A DNA stretch of 41,971 nucleotides. It comes from Ignavibacteriota bacterium (GTDB taxonomy: Bacteria > Bacteroidota > Ignavibacteria > UBA10030). The translations under genes and the position numbers were made by a program. This document shows, one piece after another, positions 27,463 through 34,719 of this stretch. The notes beneath the pieces are model-generated. The model searched no databases, was not told the origin of the DNA, and saw only the letters and a list, made by a program, of their open reading frames with translations. Numbering within the stretch: position 1 is the first letter of the stretch; each line of letters begins with the position of its first letter. The DNA lies in contig JAKEEG010000048.1 of assembly GCA_022616555.1 (NCBI GenBank), positions 1 through 41,971 of the forward strand, written 5' to 3'.

Positions 27463-29586
27463 ATGAGCAGATTTGCCGCGTATCTCCGTGTCCTGCTTGT
27501 CTTTGTCTTCATTAGCATTACCCCTGCGTTTTCGTTCCAACAATCCAACAAATACGCCAAAGAGATTGCCGCCATCGAGGAGACCATCCAAAAGAATCTG
27601 GCAGTCAACAAAAATACCGCCATCTCGATTGCGTTCATGAAGGACGGGTTCACCTGGGCGAAGGGCTTTGGCTATGCGGACTTGGAGAATAAAGTCCCGG
27701 CGACGGAGCATTCCGCTTACCGCCTCGCCTCGGTCACAAAGCCGATGACTGCGGTGGCCATTCTACAGCTTGTCGAGCAAGGGAAAATTAATCTCGACGC
27801 TGAAGTGCAAACCTATGTTCCCTATTTCCCGCGCAAGCGAGGGCCTATCACAGTGCGCCAGTTGCTGGGGCACATTGGCGGTATCAGCCATTATAAGGAT
27901 CCGGTGAACGAGCTGCACATCAAAGAGCCGAAGACAACGCGCGAATCGATTGCGATTTTTGAGGACTTCGATTTGGTTGCAGAACCGGGCACGCGTTATA
28001 ATTATTCGAGCTACGGGTATAACCTGCTCGGCGCGGTTGTGGAAGGAGCTTCGGGAATGCCGTACGGCGAGTATATGACGAAGTATGTGTGGGAACCGGC
28101 AGGAATGAGCGACACTCGTATGGATAGCCCGCGCGAAATTATCCCAAACCGCGTGCGGGGATATGTATTGGAGAACGGTAAGTTGGTGAATTCCGAATAC
28201 GTCGATATCAGCAGCCGGTTTGCGGCGGGTGGAACGCGCAGCACCGTTTTGGACTTGCTGAAATTTGCGCAGGGAGTCAACGATGGGAAATTGCTCAAGC
28301 CTGCTACTCGCGCGATGATGTTTGAGCCGATGGTGCTCAAGAATGGCAGAATGATATCGTACGGAATGGGTTGGAGCATCGAAACGACGTATGGACGGCT
28401 GCGAGTCAGCCACGGCGGTTCGCAGAACGAAACGCGCACGATGCTGTATAATTTTCCCGGATTGAATTTCATTCTTGCCGTCGCGTCGAATTATGAAAAC
28501 GTGGATGGCACTTTTGTTCAGGACGTTGTCGCAATCGTGCTCGGCGAGCCGATGTCGATTCCCTCTTACACGCAGGATAAATCGCTCGATGGCGTCAGGC
28601 GCGCGCTCTATAGTATCACTGCATTTGGTCCGGAGGACGTCAAGACCTATGGCGCACGGACTGCTGCAAACGAGAAGGAACTTGCCGAAGCGTTCGCGTA
28701 TGTCAACACATGGGTGAGCAAAGACGCTTTCGATTCGAATTCTGAGGAGGCGAGGACAAAGGTGTTGGAAGGACCGCACCCTGCGGCAAACAAGCCGTTC
28801 CTCAAGACCGGAGCCTTTATGGCGGGTGCCATTACGAAGGCGTACGGGGCCGAGCGTCTGAACAGTTATTTCAAAGCGGGTGTGTTTCCATTCTTCGCAG
28901 ATTACGTGCAGGCCTATCAGAACGACAAGACAATACCCGCCGAATTGCGATTCTCGAAATCATTAGAAGAGCTTGTGCTGAAATGGAATACCGATTGGCA
29001 GAAAGCATGGACGGCGGAGACACGGACGGTGAGTATTTCCACAGGGACCGATTTTGACGCGCTGGGCAAGCAGCTGCGCCGTGCGTTTCAAGGAGCGGAA
29101 GTCTATCCAAATTATATCGATGATATGGGGTTTGCTGTTCGCGACCTTACTGTTGCGGGAAAGAAGGAACAGGCGTTGAGTGCCGGGACATTAGGCGTTG
29201 AACTGTATCCTTCTTCTGACTTGCTGAATGCCTACTATGGTATTTCGCTCACATTATTTGGCGATGAAGTGAAGGGTTTTCCCTTTATCGAAAAGGCGGC
29301 GAAGTTGAATCCGACTGGCGCAGGGGGACCCGGCGGGTTGAATAACGTCGCGTACGGATTACTTGGGCGCGGTATGGTGGACGAAGGGCTTGTTGTTTTG
29401 AATACGGCTGTTAAACTCTACCCCAAGGAAGCGAATTTGTACGACAGCATCGGAGAATTTTATGTGAACAAGGGGCAAAAGGATAAGGCGATCGAGTACT
29501 ACAAGAAAGCGCTTGAGATTAATCCGAAATTCGAAAGTTCATTGAAAGCATTGGAGAATTTAACGAAGTCGGCAAGCGAGAAGTGA
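27463..29586 (+). CDS. Exported serine beta-lactamase-like hydrolase with C-terminal TPRs
   Basis: The 707-residue protein has a signal peptide (1-25, cleavage near AFSFQQ) and a class-C beta-lactamase/DD-peptidase fold: S-x-x-K at Ser90-Val-Thr-Lys93, a YSS variant of YxN at Tyr181 in YSSYGYNLLG, and a HGG third motif in SHGGSQNE. From about residue 370 to 560 there is an alpha-helical middle region. From about 600 come TPR units (NVAYGLLGRGMVDEGLVVL, DKAIEYYKKALEINPKFES). It probably acts in the periplasm on peptidoglycan or an ester/amide substrate. The ATG follows AAGGAGG. The usual Asn of YxN is Ser, which makes true beta-lactamase activity uncertain. Confidence 0.88.
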   Translation: MSRFAAYLRVLLVFVFISITPAFSFQQSNKYAKEIAAIEETIQKNLAVNKNTAISIAFMKDGFTWAKGFGYADLENKVPATEHSAYRLASVTKPMTAVAILQLVEQGKINLDAEVQTYVPYFPRKRGPITVRQLLGHIGGISHYKDPVNELHIKEPKTTRESIAIFEDFDLVAEPGTRYNYSSYGYNLLGAVVEGASGMPYGEYMTKYVWEPAGMSDTRMDSPREIIPNRVRGYVLENGKLVNSEYVDISSRFAAGGTRSTVLDLLKFAQGVNDGKLLKPATRAMMFEPMVLKNGRMISYGMGWSIETTYGRLRVSHGGSQNETRTMLYNFPGLNFILAVASNYENVDGTFVQDVVAIVLGEPMSIPSYTQDKSLDGVRRALYSITAFGPEDVKTYGARTAANEKELAEAFAYVNTWVSKDAFDSNSEEARTKVLEGPHPAANKPFLKTGAFMAGAITKAYGAERLNSYFKAGVFPFFADYVQAYQNDKTIPAELRFSKSLEELVLKWNTDWQKAWTAETRTVSISTGTDFDALGKQLRRAFQGAEVYPNYIDDMGFAVRDLTVAGKKEQALSAGTLGVELYPSSDLLNAYYGISLTLFGDEVKGFPFIEKAAKLNPTGAGGPGGLNNVAYGLLGRGMVDEGLVVLNTAVKLYPKEANLYDSIGEFYVNKGQKDKAIEYYKKALEINPKFESSLKALENLTKSASEK

Positions 29587-30893: not shown

Positions 30894-30926
30894 AAAAGCC
30901 GCTTCGAGCATACCGAAGCGGCTTTT
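30894..30926 (-). terminator. Intrinsic terminator of the ArsR/SRPBCC/SnoaL operon
   Basis: AAAAGCCGCTTCG (30894-30906) and CGAAGCGGCTTTT (30914-30926) form a perfect 13-bp stem with a 7-nt loop. On the minus strand a run of T follows the stem. It lies 18 nt beyond the SnoaL-gene stop. Confidence 0.9.
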
Positions 30927-30944: not shown

Positions 30945-31643
30945 TTATTTCTTTGGTTCTGATGTCATTGGCATGACACCGAGCTGCTGCATCATACTCA
31001 TTTGATCGGCGACTGCCCAGTGTTCTACGATTTTTCCATTCGCGATACGGTCTATCCGAATGCCGGTCATACGAATTTGCTGGTTTGTCGCCGGCATTTC
31101 CATAAACGGTCCGGTGTTCGTTCCAGTCAGAACGACACGGCTGACAACCTTGTCGCCCTCTGCAATCTGGTCTTCAATCGCGATGGCAAGGTCTGGGAAC
31201 GCATGTTTGAACATCATTGCCATCATTTGTGCGCTCGCTGCGCCCTGTGGCATTCCGGGGGGCAGAGAGTGCTCGATGTACTTCTCAGAAAGAAATTTCT
31301 CGAGAACGCTGTTGACCATTGTCGCACGTACCATGCCGTTTTTCATTTCGGGTGTGAGATTTTTTGGCACCTGCGGGTGTTCTTTCGCGGCGACATGCTT
31401 GTCCATTGCCGGAATCATCGTGGTGACAGCCGTCTCGTAGTTGTCGGCGGTAACGTTCACGTTTTCGCCGCAGACGCAGGTGATACGATATGCTCCAGCG
31501 GTATTCTTTGTATTCCAAAATTCGTCGATAAAACTTTTGACGATAACTTTATTTTGATTCAATGTCGTCGCGGATACCGACTGTTGTGCTGTTCCTGATC
31601 CTGTGATCAGGAGTAAACAGAAGGCAACTGAGTAATATTTCAT
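30945..31643 (-). CDS. Exported SnoaL-like protein with an inserted CVCG module
   Basis: The 232-residue protein has a signal peptide (1-20). Residues 31-50 (NKVIVKSFIDEFWNTKNTAG) and 113-225 (LEKFLSEKYIEHSLPPG, DLAIAIEDQIAEGDKVV, TGIRIDRIANGKIVEHW) are the two parts of one SnoaL-like cyclase/NTF2 fold, which is normally continuous. Between them, residues 51-112 form an inserted module (YRITCVCGENVNV ... DKHVAAKEHPQVPKNLT) that is clearly homologous to the 72-residue protein encoded just upstream. SnoaL proteins are isomerases, hydrolases or small-molecule binders. The ATG overlaps the upstream stop by 4 nt, and a GGAGGA within the preceding gene supplies the ribosome-binding site. Confidence 0.85.
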   Translation of the reverse strand: MKYYSVAFCLLLITGSGTAQQSVSATTLNQNKVIVKSFIDEFWNTKNTAGAYRITCVCGENVNVTADNYETAVTTMIPAMDKHVAAKEHPQVPKNLTPEMKNGMVRATMVNSVLEKFLSEKYIEHSLPPGMPQGAASAQMMAMMFKHAFPDLAIAIEDQIAEGDKVVSRVVLTGTNTGPFMEMPATNQQIRMTGIRIDRIANGKIVEHWAVADQMSMMQQLGVMPMTSEPKK

Positions 31644-31858
31644 TTTATCCTCCGAGTGTATGATAAGTATCCTTTTTGCATGGTGCTTCTCACCATCCCA
31701 TCTTTCTGCTCGTGTGTAAGATTTTTTGGGACTTCCGGATGCTCTTTTGCCGCTACATGTTTGTCCATTGTCGGGATGAGAGCCTTCACGGCGGCTTCAT
31801 CGTTGTCAGCCATTACGCTGACTTTTTCTCCGCAGACGCAAATGATGTGGTAGTTCAT
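31640..31858 (-). CDS. Small CVCG-motif (DUF1059-like) protein
   Basis: The 72-residue protein has ICVCGEKVSVMADND, then DKHVAAKEHPEVPKNLTHEQK. Two cysteines in C-V-C-G and the histidines of H-V-A-A-K-E-H-P could form one metal site, a pattern reminiscent of DUF1059-type small proteins; that assignment is by resemblance only. No signal peptide is evident, so it is probably cytoplasmic, unlike the inserted copy in the next gene. The last ten residues (GYLSYTRRIK) look like read-through over the next gene's ribosome-binding site and are probably not a conserved part. It lies 11 nt after the SRPBCC gene. Confidence 0.75.
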   Translation of the reverse strand: MNYHIICVCGEKVSVMADNDEAAVKALIPTMDKHVAAKEHPEVPKNLTHEQKDGMVRSTMQKGYLSYTRRIK

Positions 31859-31869
31859 GATGTGGCTCC

Positions 31870-32316
31870 TTAGGATGTTAGGTGTAAAGACTGTTCAAGT
31901 TTGTCGAGGCAGCCGACCCAGCCCTCTTCATGCTTCTTTTTGGATTCCTCGCTAGGGAAGTATTCATGTGTTAACGAGAGCTCGGTCGTTCCTGCTTTTT
32001 CCCGAAGCTCGATGGTGACCAGCATTTCCATGCTCTTGGGATCGCCTTCCCACGACCACGTGAAGACCAGGCGATGCGGCGGCTTTATCTCACGGTATGT
32101 ACCGATTGCAAAATATGAAGCATTGAGTGCATCGTCGCGCATGTGGATACGGTATGAACCTCCGATTCGAAGGTCAACACTTACTTCGGGTACATGGGCG
32201 GGACCGGGTGCGAACCATTTTTTAATTTCTTGTGGGTCTGTCCATGCGCGAAATACTTTCTCACGTGACTCAGGAATAGTGCGTTTCATAAACAGCTTCG
32301 TGACCTGTGAGGGCAT
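31870..32316 (-). CDS. SRPBCC/AHSA1-family protein
   Basis: The 148-residue protein shows the AHSA1-type START-like fold: MKRTIPESREKVFRAWTDPQEIKKWFAPGP, IGGSYRIHM, LVFTWSWEG, TTELSLTHEYFPSEESKKKHEEGW and a C-terminal helix (LDKLEQSL). This family pairs with ArsR regulators in many genomes and probably binds small hydrophobic ligands. It does not appear to be a true Hsp90 co-chaperone, as it has only the C-terminal-type domain. It begins 8 nt after the arsR stop, behind AGGAGG. Confidence 0.9.
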   Translation of the reverse strand: MPSQVTKLFMKRTIPESREKVFRAWTDPQEIKKWFAPGPAHVPEVSVDLRIGGSYRIHMRDDALNASYFAIGTYREIKPPHRLVFTWSWEGDPKSMEMLVTIELREKAGTTELSLTHEYFPSEESKKKHEEGWVGCLDKLEQSLHLTS

Positions 32317-32324
32317 CTCACCTC

Positions 32325-32660
32325 CTACTGTTTCTTCGATACGTCGAAATACTGTACAAGCGAATCAAGTCGATCGTCCCAGAATTGGCGATAGTGCTCG
32401 ATCCATTGCAGGGCTTCTTTCATCGGCTTGCTGTTGAGTTGAATGTGATGTACGCGTCCCTCCTTGCGTCGCAGCAGGAGGCCCGCCTCTTCCAGAATAC
32501 GGAGATGCTTGGAGATAGCGGGTAGGGACATATCAAATGGTTCAGCCAGCTCTGTAACGGACGCTTCACCTTGCGAGAGTCGCTCGACAATCGCGCGTCT
32601 TGTCGGGTCGGAAAGCGCAGCAAAAATACCATCCAAATGTTTAGCAGAATACTTAACCAT
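32325..32660 (-). CDS. ArsR-family winged-helix repressor
   Basis: The 111-residue protein has the ArsR layout: LDGIFAALSDPTRRAIVERL, then SVTELAEPFDMSLPAISKHLRILEEAGLL (helix-turn-helix) and a wing with LLRRKEGRVHHIQL. The usual ELCVCDL metal site is absent, so it is of the non-metal type that travels with AHSA1/SRPBCC proteins. It probably represses its own four-gene operon and is released by a ligand, perhaps one bound by the SRPBCC partner. The start codon lies inside a palindrome that is the likely operator. Confidence 0.92.
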   Translation of the reverse strand: MVKYSAKHLDGIFAALSDPTRRAIVERLSQGEASVTELAEPFDMSLPAISKHLRILEEAGLLLRRKEGRVHHIQLNSKPMKEALQWIEHYRQFWDDRLDSLVQYFDVSKKQ

Positions 32661-32668
32661 TTGGTTAA
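32653..32668. promoter_or_regulatory. Probable ArsR operator over the start codon
   Basis: TTAACCA-TT-TGGTTAA is a perfect 7+7 palindrome (32653-32659 and 32662-32668). It contains the ATG of the arsR gene (32660-32658). Its position fits autorepression by blocking initiation of transcription or early elongation. Binding itself is inferred. Confidence 0.6.
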
Positions 32669-32865
32669 ATATATAATCTTTTCAACAAAAGGTCAAGGAC
32701 ACTCAACATTTACCTTATAACACTAAGATATGACCATTAAAATGGACAAACTGGGCTTTTCCTGCTCCTTTTCTGCATTTAGACAGCGAAAAACTGAAAC
32801 TCGCACAATTCTTATAACGTATTCTACTATAGATAATAACTGCGCTGATACCTTGGAGACAAACT

Positions 32866-34719
32866 ATGAAATTTTTATTGCCTAAGAGTTCTGCAGTATT
32901 CTTTAGCGCACTAGCGCTCGGGTTTATTGCGGTGCCACAGTCTGTTGTCCGCGTTTCTCTGCCGTTGGAGGCTGCTGTGGTTTCTCCGTGGGACCATGTG
33001 GTGGCAGACTTGCGCGATTTTCGCGACCAGGAAGTTCGCGTTGCGGGCTTCCGCTTGTCGAAAGACGCGACCGTGCGTATTAATGCGTATGGCGGCGGCG
33101 ATAGAAGCTCGTGGCGCGGTTTCACCGAAGACGAGGAGCCCCAGTTGTACGCAGCCGGGTGGATCATCGACGCCGAGTCGCGCGACGTTGTGTGGGAGAT
33201 GACGTTCCAAAATTCCTCCGGTCGCGCGGACCGCAGGACGTTTGACGGTGACGTGCGGTTATCGCGCGGCGCTTATGAAGTGTACTTCTCCGCTCATGGA
33301 TATGACCATCGCGGGAGTTTTTCTAATTTTTCGATGAATATCGACCGCAGAAAGAGTGGGCGGAACTCGTCGAATTTCGGCGAAGGAATACTAAAGATGT
33401 TCGGCGTTGGCAGCGAAGACTGGTACGAAGACTTTATGCAGATGGCGAAAGAATGGGGTATCACCCTCAGCGTTCCTGACGGGGATGCCGGCTCAGTGAC
33501 TAATTTCGAAGCGCCTCTGCCGAATCGCCGTGCTGTCTTCATGGCATACAATCTCGGGGATAAGGAATATCTGCGCAAATCGATCACCGTGACGAAAGAT
33601 GTGGCTATTGAGATCGATGCGTTGGGCGAGGGCCGGCGGAATGATGGGATGTTCGATTACGGATGGATTGTCCGCAGCGACACGCGTCAGCGTGTGTGGG
33701 TGATGGATTTCCGCAGTACTGAATATGCAGGAGGAGCTACCAAGAACAGAAGGTATAAAGATGAATTGACGCTGGCAAGAGGCTCATACGAGCTATTGTA
33801 TGTAACGGATGATTCTCACTCATCGGAAGATTGGAATTCCAAGCCGCCCTTTGACCCATTCCGCTACGGGATAGCTGTTTCTGTGCGGAATGAGTCTGAC
33901 AGAAACACGATAACGATTTCCGAGCCTGAGCCAATCGATAAGAATGTCATCGTGAGCCTTGTGAAGGTGCGGGATAATGATTACCTCAGTATGGGATTTT
34001 CACTCAAGCGCGAAAGCATGATACGCGTCTATGCTATCGGCGAGCAGGTGGACCGCGACGACCCGGCTGACTACGGCTGGATTGTCAATGCGAAGACGCG
34101 CGAGCGCGTGTGGACGATGGAACGGCGACGTTTAGAGCATGCCGGTGGTGCACAGAAGAACAAGATGGTAGATGAGATTATCACTCTGCCTGCAGGCAAT
34201 TACATCGTGAATTACCAAACGGACGGGTCGCACGCATACAACGAGTGGAATTCAGACCCACCGTACGACGAAGAGCACTGGGGGATTACGGTGATGGGCG
34301 TGGGTGACCGATTCGAAGCCGGCTCCGTCGAAAAATTTGCCGAAGAAGCGGAGACGGATATCATTAGCCAGATTATCAAGGTCGGTGACAGCGATAAGAT
34401 TCGACGACGGTTTACGATTTCACAACCAACCACGGTCAGAGTGTATGCTCTTGGCGAGGGTCAAGATCGCACGATGTACGATTGGGGCTGGATTGAAGAC
34501 GCAAAGACCGGCCGGATTGTCTGGGAGATGACGTACCGGATGACCGAACATGCTGGGGGCGCGCGCAAAAACCGCATGGTGAGCCAAACAGTAACATTGC
34601 AGTCGGGCGAGTACGAGCTGCATTATGAATCCGACGGCTCACATTCGTTCAACGACTGGAACGATGACCCGCCCGAGGATCGTACACATTGGGGGATTAC
34701 AGTTTATAGGGAAAAGTAG
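32866..34719 (+). CDS. Secreted protein with four copies of an unrecognised domain
   Basis: The 617-residue protein has a signal peptide (1-29). After it come four related units of about 110-150 residues: 45-200, 222-341, 361-477 and 501-614. Units 2-4 share the order YGWI, RVWxM, ExAGGAxKN, a YEL/YIV strand, D(D/G)SH, WNSxPP or WNDDPP, and (Y/W)GI(A/T)V. Unit 1 keeps GWIIDAESRDVVWEM and EWGITLSV but lacks AGGA and DGSH. The units look beta-rich with conserved Trp, Asp, His and Asn, suggesting ligand- or metal-binding modules in the periplasm or outside. I do not recognise the family. It sits 24 nt before an NTF2-like gene, with which it is probably cotranscribed. Confidence 0.85.
   Translation: MKFLLPKSSAVFFSALALGFIAVPQSVVRVSLPLEAAVVSPWDHVVADLRDFRDQEVRVAGFRLSKDATVRINAYGGGDRSSWRGFTEDEEPQLYAAGWIIDAESRDVVWEMTFQNSSGRADRRTFDGDVRLSRGAYEVYFSAHGYDHRGSFSNFSMNIDRRKSGRNSSNFGEGILKMFGVGSEDWYEDFMQMAKEWGITLSVPDGDAGSVTNFEAPLPNRRAVFMAYNLGDKEYLRKSITVTKDVAIEIDALGEGRRNDGMFDYGWIVRSDTRQRVWVMDFRSTEYAGGATKNRRYKDELTLARGSYELLYVTDDSHSSEDWNSKPPFDPFRYGIAVSVRNESDRNTITISEPEPIDKNVIVSLVKVRDNDYLSMGFSLKRESMIRVYAIGEQVDRDDPADYGWIVNAKTRERVWTMERRRLEHAGGAQKNKMVDEIITLPAGNYIVNYQTDGSHAYNEWNSDPPYDEEHWGITVMGVGDRFEAGSVEKFAEEAETDIISQIIKVGDSDKIRRRFTISQPTTVRVYALGEGQDRTMYDWGWIEDAKTGRIVWEMTYRMTEHAGGARKNRMVSQTVTLQSGEYELHYESDGSHSFNDWNDDPPEDRTHWGITVYREK

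Follow-up and report, generated by a model that had tools for sequence, protein, structure and literature searches.

A small CVCG protein and its counterpart inserted in the adjacent SnoaL-like protein, in a predicted ArsR-controlled gene unit of an Ignavibacteriota bacterium

We found that a 72-residue protein with a CVCG motif, encoded in the window (the whole analysed stretch of 41,971 nucleotides, from an Ignavibacteriota bacterium), has a paralogous counterpart inside the product of the adjacent gene, where 63 residues interrupt a SnoaL domain. Our preferred explanation, to which we assign a probability of roughly 0.6, is that a tolerant loop of the SnoaL-like protein received a copy of the free gene, within a probably self-repressed unit of four genes. 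The copy, without the start codon and the last 8-12 codons, would have gone in frame into the downstream SnoaL-like gene at the loop after helix 1, and both copies would thereafter have been conserved as protein. The features concerned are as follows.

30894..30926, minus strand: terminator-like hairpin downstream of the SnoaL gene, a 14-pair stem followed by a T-rich tail
30945..31643, minus strand: open reading frame of the SnoaL-like protein, 232 aa, with a signal-peptide-like N-terminus (Pfam SnoaL, 123.6 bits)
31305..31493, minus strand: inserted CVCG module, residues 51-113 of the SnoaL-like protein, placed by splice test, alignment and homology
31640..31858, minus strand: open reading frame of the free CVCG module, 72 aa, paralogous to the insert
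31870..32316, minus strand: AHSA1/SRPBCC-family protein, 148 aa (Pfam AHSA1, 111 bits)
32325..32660, minus strand: ArsR-family regulator, 111 aa, without cysteine (NCBIfam HTH_metalloreg, 88.3 bits)
32649..32672, minus strand: predicted palindromic operator, core TTAACCAAATGGTTAA at 32653-32668, over the arsR start codon and the -10 element
32668..32696, minus strand: sigma-70-like promoter TTGACC-17-TATATT, with the same layout in four relatives

Homology between the free protein and the insert is far above chance by protein and DNA alignment alike: BLASTP gave 43 identical residues out of 63 (E 7e-30) and BLASTN 113 identical bases out of 155 (73%, E 4e-23), and a repeat search returned the pair as the sole direct-repeat family of the region. 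The initial annotation had noticed this match and had estimated the DNA identity by eye at roughly 70%; both points were confirmed, since the ungapped alignment over 58 codons (174 bases) yielded 70% identity for DNA and 72% for protein. Identity at the first, second and third codon positions was 83%, 86% and 41%, the same codon was used at only 20 of the 42 identical residues, and by the NG86 method dN was 0.17 with dS saturated. Judged from the 70% DNA identity, this codon-position pattern and the saturated dS, both copies are old and have been retained by selection on the protein. The residues C7, C9, H34 and H40 as well as the stretches MDKHVAAKEHP and VPKNLT are unchanged between the copies, a conservation that rests on two sequences because no relative of the module was found outside the source genome.

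The first residues of the insert match those right behind the start methionine of the free protein, and the final clear matches are Thr-Met at residues 108-109; beyond this point the free protein continues into a private tail. As read from the sequence, an AAGGAG-type ribosome-binding site lies 8 nt upstream of the ATG of the free gene, and the SnoaL gene has its GGAGG ribosome-binding site within the DNA of that private tail.

In the intact SnoaL-like protein, the alignment to the Pfam SnoaL model (PF07366, gathering cut-off 28.4 bits) begins only at model position 18, at residue 113. Upon excision of residues 51-113 the score increased by 14 bits to 137.7, and model positions 3-126 were aligned as 124 residues to 124 positions with no net gap. 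Excisions shifted by about 10 residues in either direction gave 122.9 and 124.7 bits and did not bring this increase. The junction of the spliced protein was gap-free against the solved structures 4lgq and 8ysb, and its VEHWAVAD stretch aligned with IdmH 6hnn. Among ten aligned SnoaL proteins the stretch is present only in that of the window and is missing from nine relatives of the same order; in a genome search with the SnoaL-like protein, most SnoaL matches started at or beyond residue 110. The splice test, the gap-free junction and the relatives without the stretch thus place the insert in the loop after helix 1, where by these alignments it is a clean insertion of 63 residues net, host residues showing no clear loss; its exact ends are ambiguous by about 2 residues. 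An interruption of a normally continuous fold had been proposed earlier for residues 51-112, and the interruption holds while its end moves to residue 113.

By its profile match the host domain is a member of the SnoaL/ester cyclase family, which has an NTF2-like fold: with the insert removed it covers nearly the whole profile, and its closest solved relatives are IdmH 6hnn and the ester cyclase 8ysb. The whole protein is a variant, in that helix 1 is normally joined directly to the next helix, whereas here the 63-residue module, which the nine aligned relatives lack, stands between them. A literature search returned no paper describing a SnoaL protein with a domain inserted in it. The protein would be exported, as its signal-peptide-like N-terminus, recognised by eye, suggests; the exported version that the initial annotation spoke of keeps this conditional standing. 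Three SnoaL-protein relatives (L008, L016, L025) have a long extra N-terminal region, itself NTF2-like in look, ahead of the SnoaL domain.

On the minus strand the genes follow one another in the order arsR, AHSA1, free module and SnoaL. The first two gaps measure 8 and 11 bases and the last two genes share an ATGA overlap, and by this spacing the four look like one operon. The sigma-70-like promoter stands directly ahead of arsR, and the terminator-like hairpin downstream of the SnoaL gene is a strong one. The proposal that both copies stand under one ArsR repressor is well matched by the operator, the promoter-like site, the gene overlaps and the terminator-like hairpin. A 16-bp palindrome, TTAACCANATGGTTAA, covers the arsR start codon and touches the -10 element; of 98 genomes in the order only five, from five genera, have it, at one site each and always at the start of the orthologous arsR near AHSA1 (the relatives being L147, L149, L150 and L151), and the reversed control pattern occurred once in total. 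Such a distribution argues well for an operator dedicated to autoregulation, to which ArsR would bind. From the promoter spacing the arsR message is probably nearly leaderless, and arsR is probably self-repressed; by occupying the palindrome that covers the start codon of its gene, ArsR would then switch the whole unit of four genes.

With 88.3 bits against a cut-off of 55, the regulator belongs to the ArsR/SmtB family by profile. Its translation contains no cysteine, and cysteine-based metal sites of the kind used by ArsR/SmtB sensors are therefore missing. Classical metal sensing and metal-responsive control of the unit are thus unsupported, and the regulator offers no argument for a metal role of the cargo.

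Four relatives have the regulator-AHSA1 pair together with the same palindrome over arsR, whereas the neighbouring cargo genes vary by genome, and CVCG together with SnoaL was seen only at the locus of the window. The cargo of the relatives, recognised by eye, includes a second SRPBCC-like protein and exported DUF1579-like or YciI-like proteins. Since accessory genes differ around a conserved pair, CVCG and SnoaL appear to occupy a variable cargo position. At loci L097-L101 the gene set around the ArsR-AHSA1 pair changes per genome, as if the cargo were exchangeable. Little on ArsR-AHSA1 or ArsR-SRPBCC operons was found in a literature search.

The composition of the contig is within the range of the source genome, which speaks against a contaminant contig. 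Elsewhere on it, a 617-residue protein (window positions 32866-34719) consists of several similar repeats (YGWI..A.T...VW.M ... AGGA.KNR) and has no Pfam match above cut-off, and a beta-lactamase-family protein (27463-29586) has a weak DUF5700 match in its middle and C-terminal TPR repeats.

Structure prediction was informative for the module by itself and much less so for the host. The two-sequence AlphaFold (AF2) model of the free protein reached a pLDDT of 79.6 (about 80), with strands at residues 2-6 and 12-16 and helices at 20-38 and 49-59, so that in the model the module is probably self-folding as a beta hairpin, a long helix and a short helix. The model of the whole SnoaL-like protein had a pLDDT of 37, which is due to the viral_contigs search giving no SnoaL relatives for a deeper alignment; in this otherwise poor model the insert shows the same order of elements as the free module. 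Fold searches with the module against the PDB gave nothing at E < 0.001 (the best hit, with a VIA Z of 3.5, was T7 Gp2, 4lk0_M, and is not meaningful). The absence of a convincing fold match does not make the fold of the module new.

The model of the module places CVCG in the turn of the hairpin; of the two histidines, His34 is close to where the long helix ends on its C-terminal side, and His40 follows right after that helix. From the lengths of strands and helices, the end of the helix should return towards the hairpin turn, which makes a Cys2His2 site geometrically reasonable. The CxCG in the turn and the two histidines may thus form a structural metal (Zn) site; the possible Cys/His site of the initial annotation fits the motif, the predicted topology and the conservation, and we consider it plausible, at somewhat under even odds. 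The zinc-knuckle consensus is CPxCG, and in the treble clef a knuckle is followed by a loop, a further hairpin and then ligands at the N-terminus of a helix (PMC4999995). The module resembles such fingers in that its CxCG falls in a predicted hairpin turn and a helix supplies two possible ligands, but it differs in having one hairpin and, in the model, histidines at the C-terminal end of the helix. Against the criterion of a knuckle plus two helix ligands the model is thus a loose topological fit, with no fold match listed.

An alternative is that the cysteines are redox-active or purely structural, with a CxC disulfide in the exported copy and incidental histidines. A single intervening residue is unusual for a zinc knuckle, given the CPxCG consensus (PMC4999995), and an oxidising compartment would surround the exported copy. 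However, both cysteines and both histidines are also kept in the free copy, which is predicted to be cytosolic, and the topology of the model would make the end of the long helix return to the hairpin turn. We therefore hold this alternative to be doubtful, though it is the strongest of those considered here. In our preferred scheme, the module would most likely be a small binding or docking domain, free in the cytosol and added to the exported SnoaL-like protein.

The searches made assign the module to no known family: Pfam, NCBIfam, PHROGs and PDB sequences gave no match, and neither did plasmids or phages. No copy was present among 32 genomes of the family or 98 of the order; a class sample of 391 genomes gave nothing at E below 0.001, and a phylum sample of 395 gave none, three weak matches (G067, G256, G334) being judged spurious after BLAST returned one weak alignment without the Cys motif. 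About 80 genomes of the class sample had matches at E 0.006-1, which, viewed as a set, are mostly short, partial or stop-containing, and none passes E 0.001. Two different pattern scans over 84,980 species genomes found no relative, with the limit that such scans depend on short conserved stretches, may miss distant relatives and possibly excluded the source genome's own records. Alignment-based scans of genome_contigs and viral_contigs also gave none. The pattern CxCG..[DE]..[KQE]H-x5-HP had 23 matches in genome_contigs and 5 in viral_contigs, and every translation was unrelated or broken. By these searches the module is known from one draft genome only.

It might instead be a divergent DUF1059 (PF06348), i.e. 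a known domain inserted into SnoaL. Both share the order of Cys pair, strand, helix, His pair and helix in a small protein, and exported DUF1059 proteins are present in the same class; a number of these (L026, L027, L028, L060-L063) combine signal-peptide-like N-termini with Met/Lys/Asp-rich spacers. This kinship is attractive by eye, but the Pfam model of DUF1059 did not match the module up to E 10, and hhalign of the module against same-class DUF1059 gave a probability of 0.4%, with 18 of 100 column shuffles scoring as high. Moreover, the module has CxC in place of CxxxC and a longer helix, and no DUF1059 was found in the source genome itself. With no statistical support from HMM or profile comparison, we reject this kinship as improbable.

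The initial annotation had read the arrangement as a duplication of the neighbouring gene into the host gene. The paralogy and the clean insertion stand; because no outgroup was found, the donor role of the free gene is one that we infer. The SnoaL gene very probably received its copy from the free gene, given that the free copy owns a ribosome-binding site and a start. The reverse, in which the SnoaL-like protein had the module first and a copy excised from it became the free gene upstream, draws on the homology being symmetric with only two copies; yet the module is absent in SnoaL relatives, so the host fold would be older without it, and we consider this direction quite improbable. A third source of both copies is also conceivable. 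That the second copy is a functionless chimera produced by ordinary decay or an assembly artefact is very improbable, even though the pair comes from a single draft genome. An assembly duplicate is refuted by a DNA identity of 70% in which the first and second codon positions are conserved, and the copy has an open frame, a SnoaL profile restored by excision and normal composition.

Inserted domains are common, and their origin is usually hard to trace. Domain insertions are reported in about 20% of multidomain proteins (PMC13114784). The present protein shares with nested-domain proteins generally the order host-insert-host, and differs in that the gene next to it in the operon encodes the inserted domain in its free form. 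What is unusual here is that the free version is still a neighbour in the same apparent operon, and that the module is of no known family. A bolder reading, tentative and in our estimate unlikely, treats CVCG as a new family of Cys2His2 metal domains that fold by themselves and that this lineage either alone possesses or acquired recently. The operon would then display domain shuffling in which the donor has stayed where it was, one module serving in the cytosol and, through insertion into a neighbouring scaffold gene, outside the membrane as well.

Since the free gene and the interrupted host are adjacent in one predicted operon and about 70% identical over the module, the insertion can be located with nearly single-residue precision and would be testable in the laboratory. 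The module itself is a small domain with a plausible predicted metal site, and the predicted operator, sharply defined across genera, may offer a route to the inducer.
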